From the NCBI GenBank assembly GCA_022647575.1, contig JALCKY010000001.1:558001-622000 (forward strand): a stretch of DNA of 64,000 nt, given 5' to 3'. The stretch comes from Lachnospiraceae bacterium. GTDB lineage: Bacteria > Bacillota > Clostridia > Lachnospirales > Lachnospiraceae. A program made the translations under genes and the position numbers. Below the pieces are notes generated by a model. The model was not told the DNA's origin, did not search any database, and was given only the letters and a program-made list of their open reading frames with translations. Of this stretch, positions 6,679 to 16,615 are shown piece after piece (position 1 is the stretch's first letter; each line of letters opens with the position of its first letter).

Positions 6679-9600
6679 TCAGGAACTGCTATTTTCAATA
6701 TACTGCTGCAGCGTTTCATACATCTTTCTCGGTTCGACCGGCTTGGTGATATACGCATCCATGCCCGCTTCCTTTGCCGCGCGCACGCTTTCCTCAAAAG
6801 CGTCTGCGGTCATGGCGATGATCGGGATTATGAGGGCATCCTGCCTCTCCAGCGCGCGGATATTTCTCGTCGCTTCGTAGCCGTCCATTTCCGGCATGCG
6901 GATATCCATCAGTATCAGATCGTAATATCCTTCCTTGGAAGCGACAAACTTTTTCAGTCCGATCAGGCCGTTTTCTGCTGAATCCACCATCATTCCTTTA
7001 TTCTTCAGCAGCATGGACGCGATTTCCGTATTCATCTGGTTATCCTCGCACAGCAGGATGCGCCGCCCCTTCAGGACTTCCGGACTTTCCGCCTTCGGCT
7101 TTTCTTCCAGACCGTTCTGAAGCTTTGTCACGGGAATGACAACCTCCCATCGGGTACCTGCATGCAGATGGCTTTCAACCTGGATTGTACCGCCCAGAAG
7201 GTCGACATATTTTTTGACGATGGAGAGACCCAGGCCGGTGCCCGGCGTCTGTACGGACTCCGACCGTTTTTCCTGTGAAAATGGTTCATACATGTGCTTC
7301 ATGAATTCTTCGCTCATGCCGATGCCGGTGTCCTCGATGATGAAGCCGCAGCATTCTTTTTCAGAGCCTGCGGAACGGCAGTACGGCGTTACCGTGACAG
7401 TCCCGCCGGCATGCGTAAATTTAATGGAATTGGAAATCAGGTTCAGGGCGATCTTGTTTATTTTGAGTCTGTCTGCCCAGACAGGCTCATTTTGGTAATG
7501 ACTGAGTTTTTCGATCAGCTGCACGCCCTTCAGTTCCGCGGTCGGCCTGAGGGCCGTAACGACCGCCGGGACCAGGTCATCGGACATCACGGTTTCAGGC
7601 TCCGGTACTGCCTTGCCGCTCTCGATCCTCGACAGGTCCAGCGTGTCATTGACCAGATCGAGCAGAAGCTGGCCGGAGGATGCAATCTTTTTCAGATATT
7701 CCTGTTTTTTCTTCGGATTCTTCTCCTCCAGAGCAAAAGAGGTGAAACCGAGGACTCCGTTTAAAGGCGTGCGCAGATCATGGCTCATGCCGGACAGGAA
7801 CTCCGACTTTGCGGCGGTTGCCGTCTCTGCCCGTTCAAGTGCCCTGCGCAGGCGCGCCTCCTGCTCAAGCTGCTGCTGCTGTGCCTCCGTGATATCCGTT
7901 TTAACCAGGGAAAGCAGGCCGTTTGCTTTGTCGAGATAGGAGAATTCCAGCAGTTTGCTGCGAATGCCGCTTTCCTCATTACTGTGGAACAAAGCCGAAA
8001 TACTCTCTTTCTTTTCCAGCAATGCCAGCACATTGGATAGTTTCATAAACTCTCTGTATCTGCCGCGTTCTTCCAACAGCACGTATTTCGTGAAAATGGT
8101 ATTCAGCGTCTCCTCATAGTCGGAATCGACATGAACCGTTTCTCTTCCCTTCCAGCGTTTATTCGGAATGAACAGCATGATCCGCTGTCTTTTTGCATCA
8201 ATGCAGCTGACATAATCACATTGCTCCGCCACGATTTTTTTGATGATTGCTTCGGACAGTTTCTTTTCCCGTATGCTGCTGACCGCAAAAAAAGCAAAGA
8301 TATCACCGCTCTTCGGGTGCTTGGAAAGCGTCGTGACGCCCTGCAGCCAGAGAGTCTCCTGCCCGTCAGGCGTGGAGCGGAATTCTCTGGTGATCGTCCG
8401 GTTTCCCTTTTCAAAACTGCTGAACAGACAGGACCGGTCAATCAGTTCCGCAAGGTTTTTGCGGTCCTTTTCTTCTTTGACTCCGCGCATCATCCTTTCG
8501 GTAAGTTCTTCGTAGCTGCGGCCCTCCCAGCTTACCGAAGGAGCTCCGTATCCGCGCAGCGCGTCGACTTTGTTCTGCGTAAGATTGGAGCGCTGCGTCA
8601 TCAGATAAGAGTCCGCGACAGAGTCTAAAAAAGACTGTGCAGCATCGTACTGGTCCTGAAGCAGCTGATCCTGCTTTTTCAGTTCATCGATATCCGTGAA
8701 TACGACATAGAGATATTTGACTTCCGAAATGAAAAACCAGGTGAAATTCGCGCTGACCCACTTATACCCGTCGCCCCGGATGAGAATCCGTACGACAACA
8801 GGATGCATTCCGCGCTCCCCATGGCTTGCCGCCAGTTCCCGGATGACGCAGTCCCTGTCATCAGGGTGAACCGTCTGCAGAAAACCGTTCTCTTTGGCAT
8901 CAGGAGTTTCATTTTCCGCGTAACCCCTGAAGCACAGATATTCTTTGGAAAAACGTTCGGGCACGATGGGGCCGTCCTTGTTTTCCCTGTAAAGAATGGA
9001 ACAGGTGGGAAGGCGGCCAATGGTATCCAGAAGCGTTTTCTCGACATTCTTCTGCCTCTGACTGTCAAGCTCCTGCCGAAGCTGAACTTCTTTTGAAATA
9101 TCCCGGTAGGAGGCATAGAACAGCTTGCCGTTCGGCAGATTCTCCCGGAGCGTTACATCCATCTCTACCCAGATATAAGTTCCGCTGCTTGTTCTGAGCC
9201 GGATCTGCGGAATCCGGAACTGTTTTTCGTTGAAGCATGTCCGGAACACCTCAAGCGCAGCAGGCAGGTCGTCCGGGTGGACACCGCTGAACGCATTTTT
9301 ATAATACGCGGACCGGACCGCGCTCTGCTTCGGATCTACTTTCTCCGGAGCCGGCATATCGGGACTGATGAGCCGCATCTGCTGCGTATTGGCAAAGAGG
9401 ATCTCCTGGTGCGCCTCATCGGGCATAAACAGCACGCAGACTCCTGTCGGAATATTATTCAGGATGTCAGAAACGCTGTCTGCCTGGCTGGCCGGATTGA
9501 ATGAGGATTCATCGGTGCTGCTCTGTATTTTCCTGTAGGACTCGGAGATGCTGGACATAGGCAGAAGTTTCTGATAGCCGGCCATCAGGCGGACCGTAAT

Positions 9601-10104
9601 ATCGGCCATCTCCTCCGTCGATTCGCGGAATCCGTTTTCCGCCCATTTCCGCATCAGGGAAACGACGGTTGCCGACAGATATTCCGGCATATATTCCCGC
9701 TGAAAGCCCTCAAGCCCGCTGCCTTCCTGCACTGCCATATAGCGCAGATAGCTGTTCCTGATCTCTGACTCAAAAAGAGGATATAAATTATTTTTTACAA
9801 ACAGCAGGTCAAAATACTTGTTGGTTTTTATGAAAGAATAGAACTCCTGAAAACGTAAGTGGATTTCTCCGTCAAAGGAGTGTTTCCTGTTATAGCCCTT
9901 TTCCACCTGCGACAGCTTATAGAGAACCACGTCGTCCATGGACGTAAAATTCTTGTAGAATGCCGTCCTGGAAATTCCGGCACAGGCACATACCTGTGAG
10001 ACCCTGACCTTGCAGTAGGGCACGGTTTTAAGCAATTCCATGAGCGCGGAGCAGATCTGGGTCTTGGATCTTTCCATGGCTTTTTTATTATTGATCTCGT
10101 TCAT
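6679..10104 (-). CDS. TetR regulator fused to PAS-hybrid histidine kinase
   Basis: 1141 residues in one unbroken frame, no membrane segment. Residues 10-65 are a TetR DNA-binding domain (LKTVPYCKVRVSQVCACAGI then SRTAFYKNFTSMDDVV). Residues 80-180 match a TetR ligand/dimer domain of the DhaS-like kind (LYPLFES, MRKWAENGFRESTEEMADI). Two PAS-like domains (about 211-345 and 355-475) end in ISKE and DIDEL. A further PAS-like stretch runs to a coiled coil near 740-765. The kinase has SHDLRTPLNG with the phospho-His near 775, a HATPase with EDTGIGM and GTGLGLSIVKK, and a receiver with LMDIRMPEMDG (phospho-Asp near 1066). A soluble kinase carrying its own repressor-like domain is unusual. The Nif11-type gene is divergent from it. 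Confidence 0.9.
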   Translation of the reverse strand: MNEINNKKAMERSKTQICSALMELLKTVPYCKVRVSQVCACAGISRTAFYKNFTSMDDVVLYKLSQVEKGYNRKHSFDGEIHLRFQEFYSFIKTNKYFDLLFVKNNLYPLFESEIRNSYLRYMAVQEGSGLEGFQREYMPEYLSATVVSLMRKWAENGFRESTEEMADITVRLMAGYQKLLPMSSISESYRKIQSSTDESSFNPASQADSVSDILNNIPTGVCVLFMPDEAHQEILFANTQQMRLISPDMPAPEKVDPKQSAVRSAYYKNAFSGVHPDDLPAALEVFRTCFNEKQFRIPQIRLRTSSGTYIWVEMDVTLRENLPNGKLFYASYRDISKEVQLRQELDSQRQKNVEKTLLDTIGRLPTCSILYRENKDGPIVPERFSKEYLCFRGYAENETPDAKENGFLQTVHPDDRDCVIRELAASHGERGMHPVVVRILIRGDGYKWVSANFTWFFISEVKYLYVVFTDIDELKKQDQLLQDQYDAAQSFLDSVADSYLMTQRSNLTQNKVDALRGYGAPSVSWEGRSYEELTERMMRGVKEEKDRKNLAELIDRSCLFSSFEKGNRTITREFRSTPDGQETLWLQGVTTLSKHPKSGDIFAFFAVSSIREKKLSEAIIKKIVAEQCDYVSCIDAKRQRIMLFIPNKRWKGRETVHVDSDYEETLNTIFTKYVLLEERGRYREFMKLSNVLALLEKKESISALFHSNEESGIRSKLLEFSYLDKANGLLSLVKTDITEAQQQQLEQEARLRRALERAETATAAKSEFLSGMSHDLRTPLNGVLGFTSFALEEKNPKKKQEYLKKIASSGQLLLDLVNDTLDLSRIESGKAVPEPETVMSDDLVPAVVTALRPTAELKGVQLIEKLSHYQNEPVWADRLKINKIALNLISNSIKFTHAGGTVTVTPYCRSAGSEKECCGFIIEDTGIGMSEEFMKHMYEPFSQEKRSESVQTPGTGLGLSIVKKYVDLLGGTIQVESHLHAGTRWEVVIPVTKLQNGLEEKPKAESPEVLKGRRILLCEDNQMNTEIASMLLKNKGMMVDSAENGLIGLKKFVASKEGYYDLILMDIRMPEMDGYEATRNIRALERQDALIIPIIAMTADAFEESVRAAKEAGMDAYITKPVEPRKMYETLQQYIENSSS

Positions 10105-10129
10105 CTGTGGTTCCCCTTATGCGCTTTCC

Positions 10130-10157
10130 TGAAACGGAGATGATGAAACGGAAATGA
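10130..10157. repeat. Tandem 14-bp direct repeat in the kinase leader
   Basis: TGAAACGGAGATGA (10130-10143) is followed directly by TGAAACGGAAATGA (10144-10157), one mismatch. A partial copy TGAAAC lies at 10173. The repeats sit between the minus-strand promoter and the ATG of the TetR-kinase gene. This position would suit an autoregulatory operator. Confidence 0.7.
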
Positions 10158-10179
10158 CAAAACAATCTATCCTGAAACT

Positions 10180-10208
10180 ATCATATTCCTTAAGCCATGA
10201 GTTTACAA
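10180..10208 (-). promoter_or_regulatory. Promoter of the TetR-kinase gene
   Basis: On the minus strand TTGTAA (10208-10203) and TATGAT (10185-10180) are 17 bases apart. This would give a leader of about 70 bases containing the 14-bp direct repeats. Confidence 0.55.
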
Positions 10209-10264
10209 GTGAAAACGCATAGCCCGGGATCAGGCAGTCATAGAAGCCGTGCGTCAAAAAAATA

Positions 10265-10294
10265 TTGCATATCTGCCGTGAACTGTACTAATAT
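10265..10294 (+). promoter_or_regulatory. Candidate promoter of the Nif11-type precursor gene
   Basis: TTGCAT (10265-10270) and TAATAT (10289-10294) are 18 bases apart and about 50 bases before the start codon. GGGAG sits 7 bases before the ATG. Confidence 0.45.
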
Positions 10295-10346
10295 CTATGT
10301 GACAAATCGGTTTGCACCATAAGCAGATAAGCTTGGGAGAATCATC

Positions 10347-10706
10347 ATGATGACGATAAAGGAATTCGGTGAAATCATGTGCAGGGATGAGGCATTGCGC
10401 AATGAATATCTCCTTGCGGAGAAAGAAGGCAGCATCGACCGGTTCTTCAGGGAACATGATGTGGATGCCACAGCCCGGGACATAGAAAACCTGTATCAGG
10501 CACATCAAAACTGTCAGCTTGATGATTCCGAACTGGATAATGTCTCCGGCGGACGGGATTACAGTACATGCCATACATCATCTGGTGTCGGCAGTTCCGG
10601 TACGGATTCTTCATTCAGCGGATCGGATACCTGCCACACAGCCTCCTCTGTCAGGAAGACCTCTTCCGTGCAGAAAAGAAAACCCTTTTTATGGTGGCTA
10701 TGGTAA
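10347..10706 (+). CDS. Nif11-type leader RiPP precursor peptide
   Basis: 119 residues. The first 69 form a Nif11-like leader: MTIKEFGEIMCRDEALRNEY, then an acidic helical part, ending LDDSELDNVSGG. The ELxxVSGG end is the classic double-glycine site cut by C39-peptidase exporters. The 50-residue core is rich in Ser and Thr, contains two Cys in a repeated TCHT motif (STCHTSS and DTCHTAS, 22 residues apart), and ends in a basic and aromatic tail (KRKPFLWWLW). Such composition suits lanthionine or similar crosslinks. No modifying enzyme or exporter is within the window, so maturation would have to occur in trans. It is divergent from the TetR-kinase fusion gene. Start: ATG 10347; a second ATG follows immediately. 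Confidence 0.8.
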   Translation: MMTIKEFGEIMCRDEALRNEYLLAEKEGSIDRFFREHDVDATARDIENLYQAHQNCQLDDSELDNVSGGRDYSTCHTSSGVGSSGTDSSFSGSDTCHTASSVRKTSSVQKRKPFLWWLW

Positions 10707-10725
10707 AACCCGCGGCACGGACAGT

Positions 10726-11601
10726 TTACCGGCACTTGAGATAATCCAGAAAGGTCTTTGTCGCCAGTGAAGCCGTTCTGCTGTTTTTCAGAATCACTCC
10801 GATATTTCTGACAAGCGGTTCCGACAGCGGAATCGCTTTGATTTTATAGGGAATCCTCCTGAGGATCAGATTCGGCAGGATGCTGATTCCCAGTCCGCTT
10901 TCAACCATGGACATAATGGCATAGTCATCCCATGTCGTAAAATGGGTCTTCGGCACGATTCCCAGACGGTCGAAGTATTCCGAAACTTCTTCTTTTTTCC
11001 CGTGCTCCAGAAGAAGGAACGGTTCCTTCTCAAACTCCGAAACAGGAAAGACTTCTGCATCTGACTGCGGATGGTTTTTCGGCAGGATAGCCTTAAAGGA
11101 ATCCTGTTCCAGAAAGATGGTTTCCAGATCGGAGGATACGGGAAGCCTGGTAAAGCCGCAGTCCACGCGGCCTTCCTGAACCCATTCCTCGATTTCCTCA
11201 TAGTCGCCCATCAGAAGTTCATAATCTATATTCGGATAATTCTTCTGAAATTTCCTGATGATATTCGGCAGCCAGTGCGTCGCCACGCTTGAAAAAGTCC
11301 CGATGCGGATCATGCCGGATTTCAGCCCGTTGAGTTCATCGACCTGCATCTGGAGATTCCTGTATACATTTACCATATCTCTTGCATACGGCAGAAGAAG
11401 CTGACCGGCCGACGTCGGAGATACCCCGCTGCGGTCCCGTTCAAGAAGCGAGAGCTTCCATTCCTTTTCAAGGTCGCCGATCATCCGGCTGATTCCTGAC
11501 TGAGAGTAATGGAGCCTGTCCGCCGCCTTGGTAAAGCTGCCGCACTCAACGGTCGTGATAAAGGCTATATACTTCTGAATCGAGATGTCTTTTCCATCCA
11601 T
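10726..11601 (-). CDS. LysR-family transcriptional regulator
   Basis: 291 residues. N-terminal winged helix (IQKYIAFITTVECGSFTKAA, then LHYSQSGISRMIGDLEKEWK) and a C-terminal effector domain from about 92 (IRIGTFSSVATHWLPNIIRK) complete the family pattern. The window shows no second regulator for the divergent EamA-type exporter 96 bases away, so that gene is the likely target along with itself. A perfect ATGAATA-T-TATTCAT palindrome lies in the shared gap. The gene ends 19 bases from the Nif11-type gene, tail to tail, with no terminator between. Confidence 0.9.
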   Translation of the reverse strand: MDGKDISIQKYIAFITTVECGSFTKAADRLHYSQSGISRMIGDLEKEWKLSLLERDRSGVSPTSAGQLLLPYARDMVNVYRNLQMQVDELNGLKSGMIRIGTFSSVATHWLPNIIRKFQKNYPNIDYELLMGDYEEIEEWVQEGRVDCGFTRLPVSSDLETIFLEQDSFKAILPKNHPQSDAEVFPVSEFEKEPFLLLEHGKKEEVSEYFDRLGIVPKTHFTTWDDYAIMSMVESGLGISILPNLILRRIPYKIKAIPLSEPLVRNIGVILKNSRTASLATKTFLDYLKCR

Positions 11602-13841: not shown

Positions 13842-16615
13842 GATTTCCCTCCGCATGCTTTCTCCAGGGCATCAAACATCTTCACATTGTCGATCGGCTT
13901 GGAAATATGGCCGTTCATCCCGGCCCGGCGGCATTTTTCGATATCCTCCTCGTAAGCGTCGGCGGACATCGCAAGGATCTGCACGGAGGAAGCATCCGCA
14001 CGGTCCAGCTTCCGGATTTCTTCGGCAGCCGTAAAGCCGTCCATCACCGGCATCCTCAGATCCATGAGGATGACATCATAATAGCCGACAGCCGAATCTG
14101 AAAATTTCCTGACGCCGATCTCCCCGTTTTCCGCAGAGCTTACGACAAGCCCACGGCTTTCAATGACCTTCCTGGCAATTTCCGTATTCATTTCATTGTC
14201 TTCACATAAAAGGACATGTTTTCCGCGAAGCACGTCCGCTGCCGTTTGATCAGTTTCCTTCTTGTCCGCGCCTTCCACTTTTTTCACAGGCAGAAGGATT
14301 TCGAATCTTGTTCCTTTTCCCTGACTGCTTTTCACGGAAATCGTTCCGCCCATCATGGTGACGATCTGTTTGACGATAGAAAGCCCGAGGCCTGTTCCCT
14401 GCGTATTCCGCACTGCAGGCGATACTTCCTGCGTAAACGGCTCAAACATTTTCTTCTGGAATTCTTCATCCATTCCGATGCCGTTGTCTTCAATGATAAA
14501 GCGGCAGTTCTTCTGATTCAGGGGCGGATCGATCGCTTCAATCGTCAGTTTCACGGTTCCGCCTTCCGGCGTAAATTTCACTGCATTGGAAAGAAGATTG
14601 AGAAGGACCTTCTGGGTATTGATGACATCGGCTTCAAAATACCCTTTGGGCGCGCGTTCCGTGTCAACCAGGAAATGAACTCCTTTTTCTTCTGCGGAAA
14701 TCTCAATCGGCACGACCGCATTCCGGATGATCTCACTGCCCGATACAATTTCCGGGTTCAGCGTATATTTCCCGCTCTCGATCTTGCTGATGTCCAGCGT
14801 ATCGTTGATGAGATTCAGCAGGAATTCTCCGGAGATCTTGATCTTTTCAAGATAGCCTTCTTTTTCCGCCGGATCGGAAGTACTTCTTGCAAGTCCGGTA
14901 TATCCGATAATTCCATTCAAAGGAGTGCGCATGTCATGGCTCATGTTCGATAAAAATTCAGACTTGGCATTGGCTGCCTTCTTCAGCTCCGCATTCTTGT
15001 TTTTCATTCTCCGTGCGGAAATGAATCCTGCAAGCAGCATGGCGGCAGCGAATCCCAGAATCGTGAATACCAGGATCATCAGCCGCTGGTTATCATAGAG
15101 CATGTCCATAAAAGACAGCGACTTTGTGGAAAGCGAAGTATTCTCCATCGCCTGGTTCACGGTTTCCGAGCCGATGGAGGCAGCGGCCTTGCTCAGGATA
15201 GAATAGAGGCGGTCATCCGCCTTGTCGGATACGGCTGCGGACAGGGAATAGTTTGTTCCGGTCGCTTTGTACACGACGTTCTGATAGGCAAATCTCTTGC
15301 TGTAATACCCCATTTCATAGGAATCCACGAAGGCCACATCTGCCTGATTGCTCAGGACTGCCATCAGGCATTCCTCCGTTGAAAGATAATCGGCAAAGCT
15401 GTAGGGATCCTTCAGGATATTGCCGGAGAAGTATTTCAGGTAATCTCCCGAGACCGTAGCGGCACGGTTTCCGCCCGTACTGTCCGTACGGGTGGCTATG
15501 AAAATCGGAAGCGACGAAAAAGGCACGGTAATCTTCGCACTGTTCTGCGCGGCCCAGGTATAATCATAGGGGAATCCGGCAAAGATATCCGCTTCGCCGC
15601 TCCGGAATTTCTCCAGGGCTTCTTCTTCCGAACTGCAGGACAGATAAGAAAAACGGAGCCCGGTATTTTCGGAAATCTTTTCGAAAATGACCGACAGCGC
15701 TCCGTCAAAATTTCCCTTGTCGTTCGTGTAGGACAGCGGAACCCATTTCGGGTCATAGACCACCTTCACGTCCTCTCCGGAATTGATATATTCTTTTTCG
15801 GATTCCGAAATGACCGTCAGCTCGTTTCCCGTGCTGCTGTGGTATTTCTGATAGAGGCCCTCCTCGAAATACGGATTCTCGGTTTTCAGCTTGTTCATGG
15901 CGACATTCAGTTCCTGCAGAAGATCATTATTTCCCTTCGTCACCGCGAAATAATAGGAATGGACGCCGATCCTTGCGACCGTCCGCATGCCGCTGTCCGT
16001 AAGGCTGCTCACAAGATAGGAGTTGACTTCCCCGCTCTTCATTCCCTGCAGCACATGCTCCCAGTCATGATAATAGATCAGCTTCGGCAGGCAGTCGTTG
16101 TCTTTGCAGTAATCGACGAACGCACTGTTGTTGACACTGTCCGTATAGGATAGGCCCACTGTGAGCGAGGACAGCGCTGTGAAATCTTCATAGGATATCT
16201 CCGAATTCCCCGGGCTCACGACAAGACAGGTGCTGCTCTCTCCCGATGCCAGGGAGGAAAATGAAAGCCGGTCTGTGAGTTCATCCGTCCTGTCGACATT
16301 GTTCATAAGGTCCAGTTCCCCGTCTTCCAGCATCTTCAGGCCTTCCTCATAGGTCACCGGGACGAACTGATACTGCCATCCGGCATACTGCGCGATGGCC
16401 TGCAGATAATCATAGCTGTATCCCCGGTATTCCTGACTGGAAGAATTGTATTCCTGAAAATTCGTAAGGGTATAATAGCCGACACGTACCGTACGTTTTT
16501 CACTTCCGGCACGGACAGAAAGGGGAAGAAGCGAAACAAAGAAAACTGCAGATAAAACTGCGGCTAAAAGGCGGAGCATGCATTTGCGGCATCTGCCCGT
16601 ATTTCTCTTTTCCAT
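13838..16615 (-). CDS. Hybrid histidine kinase with two SBP_bac_3 sensor domains
   Basis: 925 residues, BvgS/EvgS-like layout. Signal peptide 1-36 (ending LPLSVRA), first extracellular amino-acid-binding-like domain about 40-265 (VRVGYYTLTNFQEY), second about 275-495 (VKVVYDPKWVPLSYTNDKG). A membrane helix near 509-532 precedes the kinase core with SHDMRTPLNG (phospho-His near 560), HATPase motifs EDNGIGM and GTGLGLSIVKQ, and a receiver with LMDLRMPVMDG (Asp near 849). No separate response regulator is adjacent, so its output must lie elsewhere. A -10 box lies only 13 bases before the ATG with no ribosome binding site. It is translationally coupled to the solute-binding lipoprotein. Confidence 0.92.
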   Translation of the reverse strand: MEKRNTGRCRKCMLRLLAAVLSAVFFVSLLPLSVRAGSEKRTVRVGYYTLTNFQEYNSSSQEYRGYSYDYLQAIAQYAGWQYQFVPVTYEEGLKMLEDGELDLMNNVDRTDELTDRLSFSSLASGESSTCLVVSPGNSEISYEDFTALSSLTVGLSYTDSVNNSAFVDYCKDNDCLPKLIYYHDWEHVLQGMKSGEVNSYLVSSLTDSGMRTVARIGVHSYYFAVTKGNNDLLQELNVAMNKLKTENPYFEEGLYQKYHSSTGNELTVISESEKEYINSGEDVKVVYDPKWVPLSYTNDKGNFDGALSVIFEKISENTGLRFSYLSCSSEEEALEKFRSGEADIFAGFPYDYTWAAQNSAKITVPFSSLPIFIATRTDSTGGNRAATVSGDYLKYFSGNILKDPYSFADYLSTEECLMAVLSNQADVAFVDSYEMGYYSKRFAYQNVVYKATGTNYSLSAAVSDKADDRLYSILSKAAASIGSETVNQAMENTSLSTKSLSFMDMLYDNQRLMILVFTILGFAAAMLLAGFISARRMKNKNAELKKAANAKSEFLSNMSHDMRTPLNGIIGYTGLARSTSDPAEKEGYLEKIKISGEFLLNLINDTLDISKIESGKYTLNPEIVSGSEIIRNAVVPIEISAEEKGVHFLVDTERAPKGYFEADVINTQKVLLNLLSNAVKFTPEGGTVKLTIEAIDPPLNQKNCRFIIEDNGIGMDEEFQKKMFEPFTQEVSPAVRNTQGTGLGLSIVKQIVTMMGGTISVKSSQGKGTRFEILLPVKKVEGADKKETDQTAADVLRGKHVLLCEDNEMNTEIARKVIESRGLVVSSAENGEIGVRKFSDSAVGYYDVILMDLRMPVMDGFTAAEEIRKLDRADASSVQILAMSADAYEEDIEKCRRAGMNGHISKPIDNVKMFDALEKACGGKS

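Follow-up and report, generated by a model that had tools for sequence, protein, structure and literature searches.

The Precursor Gene and Its Surroundings

The window, that is, the whole 64,000-nucleotide stretch of DNA that was analyzed (C1:558001-622000), contains an open reading frame (ORF) for a double-glycine precursor peptide (Table 1). The window was read ORF by ORF over positions 1-24,000. The leader ends in ELDNVSGG, and the predicted core, RDYSTCHTSSGVGSSGTDSSFSGSDTCHTASSVRKTSSVQKRKPFLWWLW, has a computed pI of 9.3 and a computed mass of 5500 Da. The gene is confirmed as it was first described; the leader, the VSGG site, the 50-residue core, the twin TCHT motifs and the KPFLWWLW end are all present in the ORF. 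Its kind is ordinary; its core is unusual and unproven.

The ORF is flanked by a divergent gene (6679-10104), which encodes a TetR_C_8 region, a PAS domain, a histidine kinase and a receiver domain, and by a convergent LysR regulator gene, which is itself beside a gene for an EamA-family transporter. No promoter-like site was found upstream of the ORF on the plus strand. The terminator-like hairpin downstream is a consensus match only, and four such sites are present on both strands of 10050-10900 against 0.9 expected.

Table 1. Coordinates of the features discussed. Positions without a locus name are those of the window.
Feature	Position	Strand	Remarks
Double-glycine precursor ORF	10347-10706	+	119 aa, ATG start
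GGGAG, likely ribosome-binding site	10335..10339	+	7 nt 5' of ATG; from sequence
Leader, Nif11-like	10347..10553	+	69 aa; end L(-12)DDSE(-8)L(-7)DNV(-4)SGG
Predicted core	10554..10703	+	50 aa; Ser/Thr/Gly-rich, 2 Cys, 2 His
TCHT unit 1	10566..10577	+	sequence
TCHT unit 2	10629..10640	+	sequence
KPFLWWLW tail	10680..10703	+	sequence
Terminator-like hairpin, T-rich tail	10813..10838	+	inside convergent LysR gene; possible transcript end
C3 maturase halves, radical SAM / SPASM	L019 14916-15737 / 15578-16315	+	read in two frames
Nif11-like leader + 2-6-residue core ending Lys-Cys	L019 16417-16635	+	just behind exporter/radical SAM operon
Nif11-like leaders + 2-6-residue cores ending Lys-Cys	L003 1411-1641; L008 9840-10070	-	sequence
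Short double-glycine leaders + cold-shock-domain-like cores	L008 7855-8109; 8757-9002	-	Pfam CSD
G029 cluster	L012 5538-16931		LanM-like, LanC-like, B12 radical SAM C-methyltransferase, NHLM-type exporter, Nif11-like precursor ending in Cys

The LysR gene has a match at E <= 1e-80 in three of the 42 genomes of the genus, the own genome included. The relative in G019 (64% identity) still has a permease-like gene on the opposite flank, and the 93 bases between this LysR gene and the next gene contain no ORF of at least 40 aa. The relative in G017 (47%) has different neighbors. Based on one comparison, that with G019, the peptide looks like a lineage-specific gain or loss. The neighboring genes lend no support to a linked function.

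Leader Homology and Structure

The end of the leader, with L(-12), E(-8), L(-7), V(-4) and GG, follows the pattern of C39-exported double-glycine peptides. The preliminary description called the leader Nif11-type, and a distant relationship is observed. The NCBIfam Nif11 leader model (TIGR03798) aligns with leader residues 4-69 at 17.8 bits (E = 0.0029), below its cut-off of 32.3, and the Pfam scan of the precursor returned no family, PF07862 included. A profile built from five leaders finds seven places in the own genome and further places in G029, G012 and G015, which makes four of the 42 genus genomes. It recovers three of the four loci detected in the own genome by the Pfam Nif11 model (E = 8e-8 to 3e-6). 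Because the profile finds Nif11 loci and TIGR03798 stays below its cut-off, the leader is considered to be Nif11-like by descent, only distantly, and not a member of the curated family. Weak matches in G402, G315, G375 and G015:C37 (E = 0.003-0.009) were dropped, as no ORF with a GG motif was seen there on inspection.

The preliminary description had also proposed a search for paralogous leaders. One is present in the same genome at C3:122637 (39% identity, E = 1.1e-7); it has the GG site in common with this leader, and its core is unrelated. Relatives of the leader are found in G029 and G012 of the genus and in G309 of the family, and those of G029 and G012 share both leader and GG site. That the leader is real is indicated by its paralogue, by related leaders in sister genomes and by its residues at L(-12), L(-7) and V(-4).

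The AlphaFold2 model of the precursor has a mean pLDDT of 61.1 and a pTM of 0.40. The leader is predicted to be helical, with a mean pLDDT of 79-85 for residues 1-40 and about 50-68 closer to GG. The core is modeled without structure (pLDDT mostly below 50).

A 64-aa Nif11-like leader protein that has neither a GG site nor a core is encoded at L058 1501-1695 on the plus strand (profile E = 8e-10).

Other Double-Glycine Precursors

The genome encodes at least 15 double-glycine precursors, 14 in addition to the one studied here. Leucine at -7 and valine at -4 are present in all 15, leucine at -12 in 12 and glutamate at -8 in nine; the -7 and -4 residues are favored by the pattern or motif that found most of these leaders, and only the -12 and -8 positions are free evidence. 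The GG pattern at the DNA level gave 18 matches, compared with seven for the reversed control. After the ORFs were read, ten were judged to be real leaders, and eight (L028, L030, L031, L034 and L042-L045) were set aside as chance matches. The other five leaders came from the Nif11 search or from a motif scan limited to fetched stretches, and 15 is thus a minimum. For the related NHLP family, leader conservation has been argued to track the transport system and not the modifying enzyme (Haft and colleagues, PMC2887384).

The cores behind these GG tags are unrelated, with a Lys-Cys dipeptide at one extreme and a cold-shock-like domain at the other. The three cores that end in Lys-Cys, from the L019, L003 and L008 loci, are KC, KKC and GAGMKC. 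Cleavage at GG could free a Lys-Cys dipeptide from such precursors; alternatively, the peptide may act as a small-molecule scaffold. The two cold-shock-like precursors (Pfam CSD, E = 1.2e-8 for L008 7855-8109 and 0.0079, under the cut-off, for L008 8757-9002) sit in a cluster of six double-glycine precursors at C4:128.2-130.9 kb. This set of mostly unlinked precursors is more interesting than the single ORF.

The leader relative in G029 has a different setting. It adjoins a LanM-like protein with Pfam DUF4135 and LANC_like domains, which scores 292.4 bits with TIGR03897, just under the cut-off of 304. The B12 radical SAM C-methyltransferase of this cluster is over the cut-off of TIGR03975; the best models for the NHLM-type exporter pair are TIGR03796 and TIGR03797, both with scores below the cut-offs. 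A precursor related to that of G029 is present in G012 (L026).

LahT-like Exporters

A genome-wide domain search detected three full C39 exporters, at C7:139706, C2:369417 and C3:323589. At C1:800040 there is a weak C39 match whose best Pfam family is Peptidase_C39_2. No C39 match lies inside the window, and genome-wide searches for LanC, YcaO, SPASM and radical SAM domains also place none there, in agreement with what was first reported for the window. The word "orphan" therefore suits the locus; it does not suit the genome, with its three C39 exporters and at least 15 such leaders. A precursor can appear orphaned in a 64 kb window while fitting exporters sit elsewhere in the genome.

All three exporters exceed 853.3 bits, the cut-off of the NHLM peptidase/ABC exporter model TIGR03796 (902.8, 900.9 and 900.9 bits). 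Each is followed by a second ABC subunit with TIGR03797 as the best model; at a cut-off of 709.4, the C2 subunit is over (716.1 bits), and those of C7 (699.6) and C3 (614.6) are under. The short ORF that precedes each of them is weakly similar to the initial portion of the NHLM HlyD model and to no more of it, with scores below the cut-off (E = 2e-7 to 2e-12). The protease of the C3 exporter aligns with LahT147 (PDB 6MPZ) over 147 residues at E = 1e-62 with Cys27, His101 and Asp117 in register, and these catalytic residues are kept in all three exporters. The LahT match also suggests kinship of the host with the Lachnospiraceae.

The LahT protease is described as reading Val-4, Leu-7 and Leu-12 and as accepting very different cores (PMC6363468; PMC10885120). 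As in the lah cluster of Lachnospiraceae bacterium C6A11 (LahT, LahA1-9; PMC6363468), a LahT-type protease is present here, and the precursors combine Nif11-type leaders carrying L-12/L-7/V-4 and GG with very different cores. Unlike the lah precursors, which are described from a lanthipeptide operon (PMC6363468), the precursor here is unlinked to its presumed exporter, and a LanC-type gene was not found. For the double-glycine peptides of this genome, most of which are unlinked, a connection can be made to LahT-like exporters, whose protease is known to accept many cores.

Modification Enzymes

The preliminary description named lanthipeptide synthetases, YcaO enzymes and radical SAM enzymes as candidates to be searched for in the whole genome. 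In the genome of the window, LANC_like (PF05147) and YcaO (PF02624) have no match, and with these results the lanthipeptide reading and the azole (TOMM) reading were dropped. With the completeness of the assembly estimated at 94.3%, an enzyme may have been missed. Radical SAM enzymes do exist, with 23 matches, and a separate search gave three SPASM matches. Only one such gene, at C3:328191 in an exporter operon, is beside an exporter, and its radical SAM and SPASM halves lie in different frames. Either the organism carries a damaged gene or the assembly is wrong here. The gene adjoins a precursor with a two-residue core. The lanthipeptide and azole readings are unsupported because there is no LanC-type or YcaO gene and the exporter-side radical SAM gene is split.

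The NCBIfam scan covered eight of the 23 radical SAM matches and the first half of the C3 gene. The SPASM enzyme at C5:104986 exceeds the cut-off set for the SCIFF maturase model. For the radical SAM/SPASM gene at C1:546448, about 21 kb from the ORF, no model is over its cut-off among the matches listed at E <= 1e-20.

Three adjacent radical SAM matches in short separate frames are seen at L081-L083 (G000:C6:185955-187603), perhaps a broken or misassembled gene.

Repeats and Homologues of the Core

TCHT occurred twice in none of 100,000 shuffles of the core, and any repeated 4-mer occurred in 7.6% of them. The TCHT repeat exceeds simple composition. At the DNA level, the best pair of 27-base stretches within the core agrees at 19 of 27 positions, a score that was equaled in one of 300 codon shuffles (18 or more in four of 300). 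The repeat in the TCHT region is degenerate, as shown by this best match. In a separate 27-base comparison of the two units, third positions account for four of the nine differences. Compared by eye in the annotated frame, the TCHT units themselves show just two differences, both silent and at third positions.

We found no core homologue in the own genome and 60 relatives (61 genomes), where only leader relatives were seen, in 397 genomes drawn from the family, or in 42 genus genomes. Whole-protein searches of the genome_contigs, plasmids and phages collections did not find one either, nor did a search of viral_contigs with the leader profile. A literature search of open-licence papers found the peptide named nowhere. 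The preliminary description had set two findings against itself, a genome lacking maturation enzymes and C39 exporters and a core that is not conserved in relatives; core conservation was not found in the relatives, but C39 exporters are present.

Interpretation

We incline, with a confidence slightly better than even, to the reading that the precursor is encoded alone, that a shared LahT-like exporter cuts it at GG and secretes it, and that it probably receives no further modification except perhaps a disulfide. The precursor would be translated, and its Nif11-like leader would act as a tag for export and cleavage. By homology with LahT, the C-terminal leader helix (L-12, L-7, V-4) would be bound by one of the three exporters, which would cut after Gly-Gly and release a cationic core of ~5.5 kDa. 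No lanthionine or azole chemistry would be put on this core. The two core cysteines could pair as a disulfide, and the KRKPFLWWLW end would lie at the membrane surface. The likely role would be that of a narrow-spectrum peptide against neighbors, or a role at the cell surface. If really made, the core would be a small peptide that is secreted and whose sequence type is absent from the collections searched. Class II bacteriocins and ComC-type peptide pheromones also have double-glycine leaders and undergo GG cleavage and export without enzymatic modification, as proposed here; their leaders are much shorter than 69 aa.

It is possible, though on the whole somewhat unlikely, that the leader is real and the core in the annotated frame is not an evolved product. 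A small indel near GG (a true one or an assembly artifact) or a fusion with foreign DNA would then have produced TCHT and WWLW as out-of-frame by-products. The frame signal falls at the leader/core junction. The synonymous codon score of the core is -0.20, and none of 3000 simulated back-translations with genome codons was as low. The frame model, which was built on 1920 control windows from long ORFs and misassigned 58 of them, favors the +2 frame over the annotated core frame (log-likelihood 3.4 vs -7.9). Given the core amino-acid sequence, the +2 score was reached in 0 of 3000 simulations with genome codons and in 2 of 3000 with background codons. A minus-strand frame of 47 codons across the core has normal synonymous usage (P = 0.23). 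Split frames elsewhere in the genome (the C3 maturase and the C6:185955-187603 matches) and the lack of core homologues in the collections searched would also fit. However, six of the 11 other double-glycine cores of at least 11 aa are abnormal in synonymous codons as well (P <= 0.007), and one of seven longer cores also prefers a different frame, so the codon and frame test is not specific. Synonymous usage in the +2 frame of the core is itself poor (P = 0.0035 to 0.0125), and the best-of-six frame score is at least as high as that of the core in 53% of 212 intergenic windows. The +2 reading has no relative in genome_contigs and no family match, and the minus-strand reading has no family match. 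The silent differences between the TCHT units also argue for the annotated frame. Codon usage gives the annotated core frame no support; on sequence alone this frame is a candidate, and TCHT and WWLW, which may be features of a young or out-of-frame core, are best treated as provisional.

Modification of the core Ser, Thr and Cys before export, by a radical SAM/SPASM enzyme encoded elsewhere or by an enzyme missed in the draft, is considered quite improbable. The Ser/Thr/Cys-rich core, the radical SAM/SPASM genes at C3:328191 and C1:546448, and the LanM-like, LanC-like and B12 radical SAM enzymes beside the G029 leader relative are consistent with such modification, and in picocyanobacteria a solitary promiscuous ProcM-type enzyme is described as serving many Nif11-family precursors (PMC10783134). 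They are countered by the absence of LANC_like and YcaO matches in the genome and by the state of the known candidates: the C3 maturase is split and beside a two-residue-core precursor, the C5 enzyme is over the SCIFF maturase cut-off, and the C1 enzyme is over no cut-off among the matches listed at E <= 1e-20.

Beyond the single, probably unmodified exported peptide that we prefer, a dispersed "tag and ship" secretome can be imagined, although we regard it as unlikely. A common GG tag would precede unrelated cores, three broad exporters would serve them, and new cores would arise when out-of-frame or foreign DNA is captured downstream of a leader, with the TCHT/WWLW core as a newborn.

The precursor resembles the Nif11/NHLP families with the NHLM cassette (TIGR03798, TIGR03794/6/7; PMC2887384, PMC4289311) in its long leader, its VSGG site and its variable Ser/Thr/Cys-rich core. 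It differs from them in a leader under the TIGR03798 cut-off and in that LanC-type and YcaO genes were not found in the genome. The ranges given for anaerobes are 66-85 for the leader and 14-59 for the core (PMC4289311), and the 69:50 split of this precursor falls inside both.
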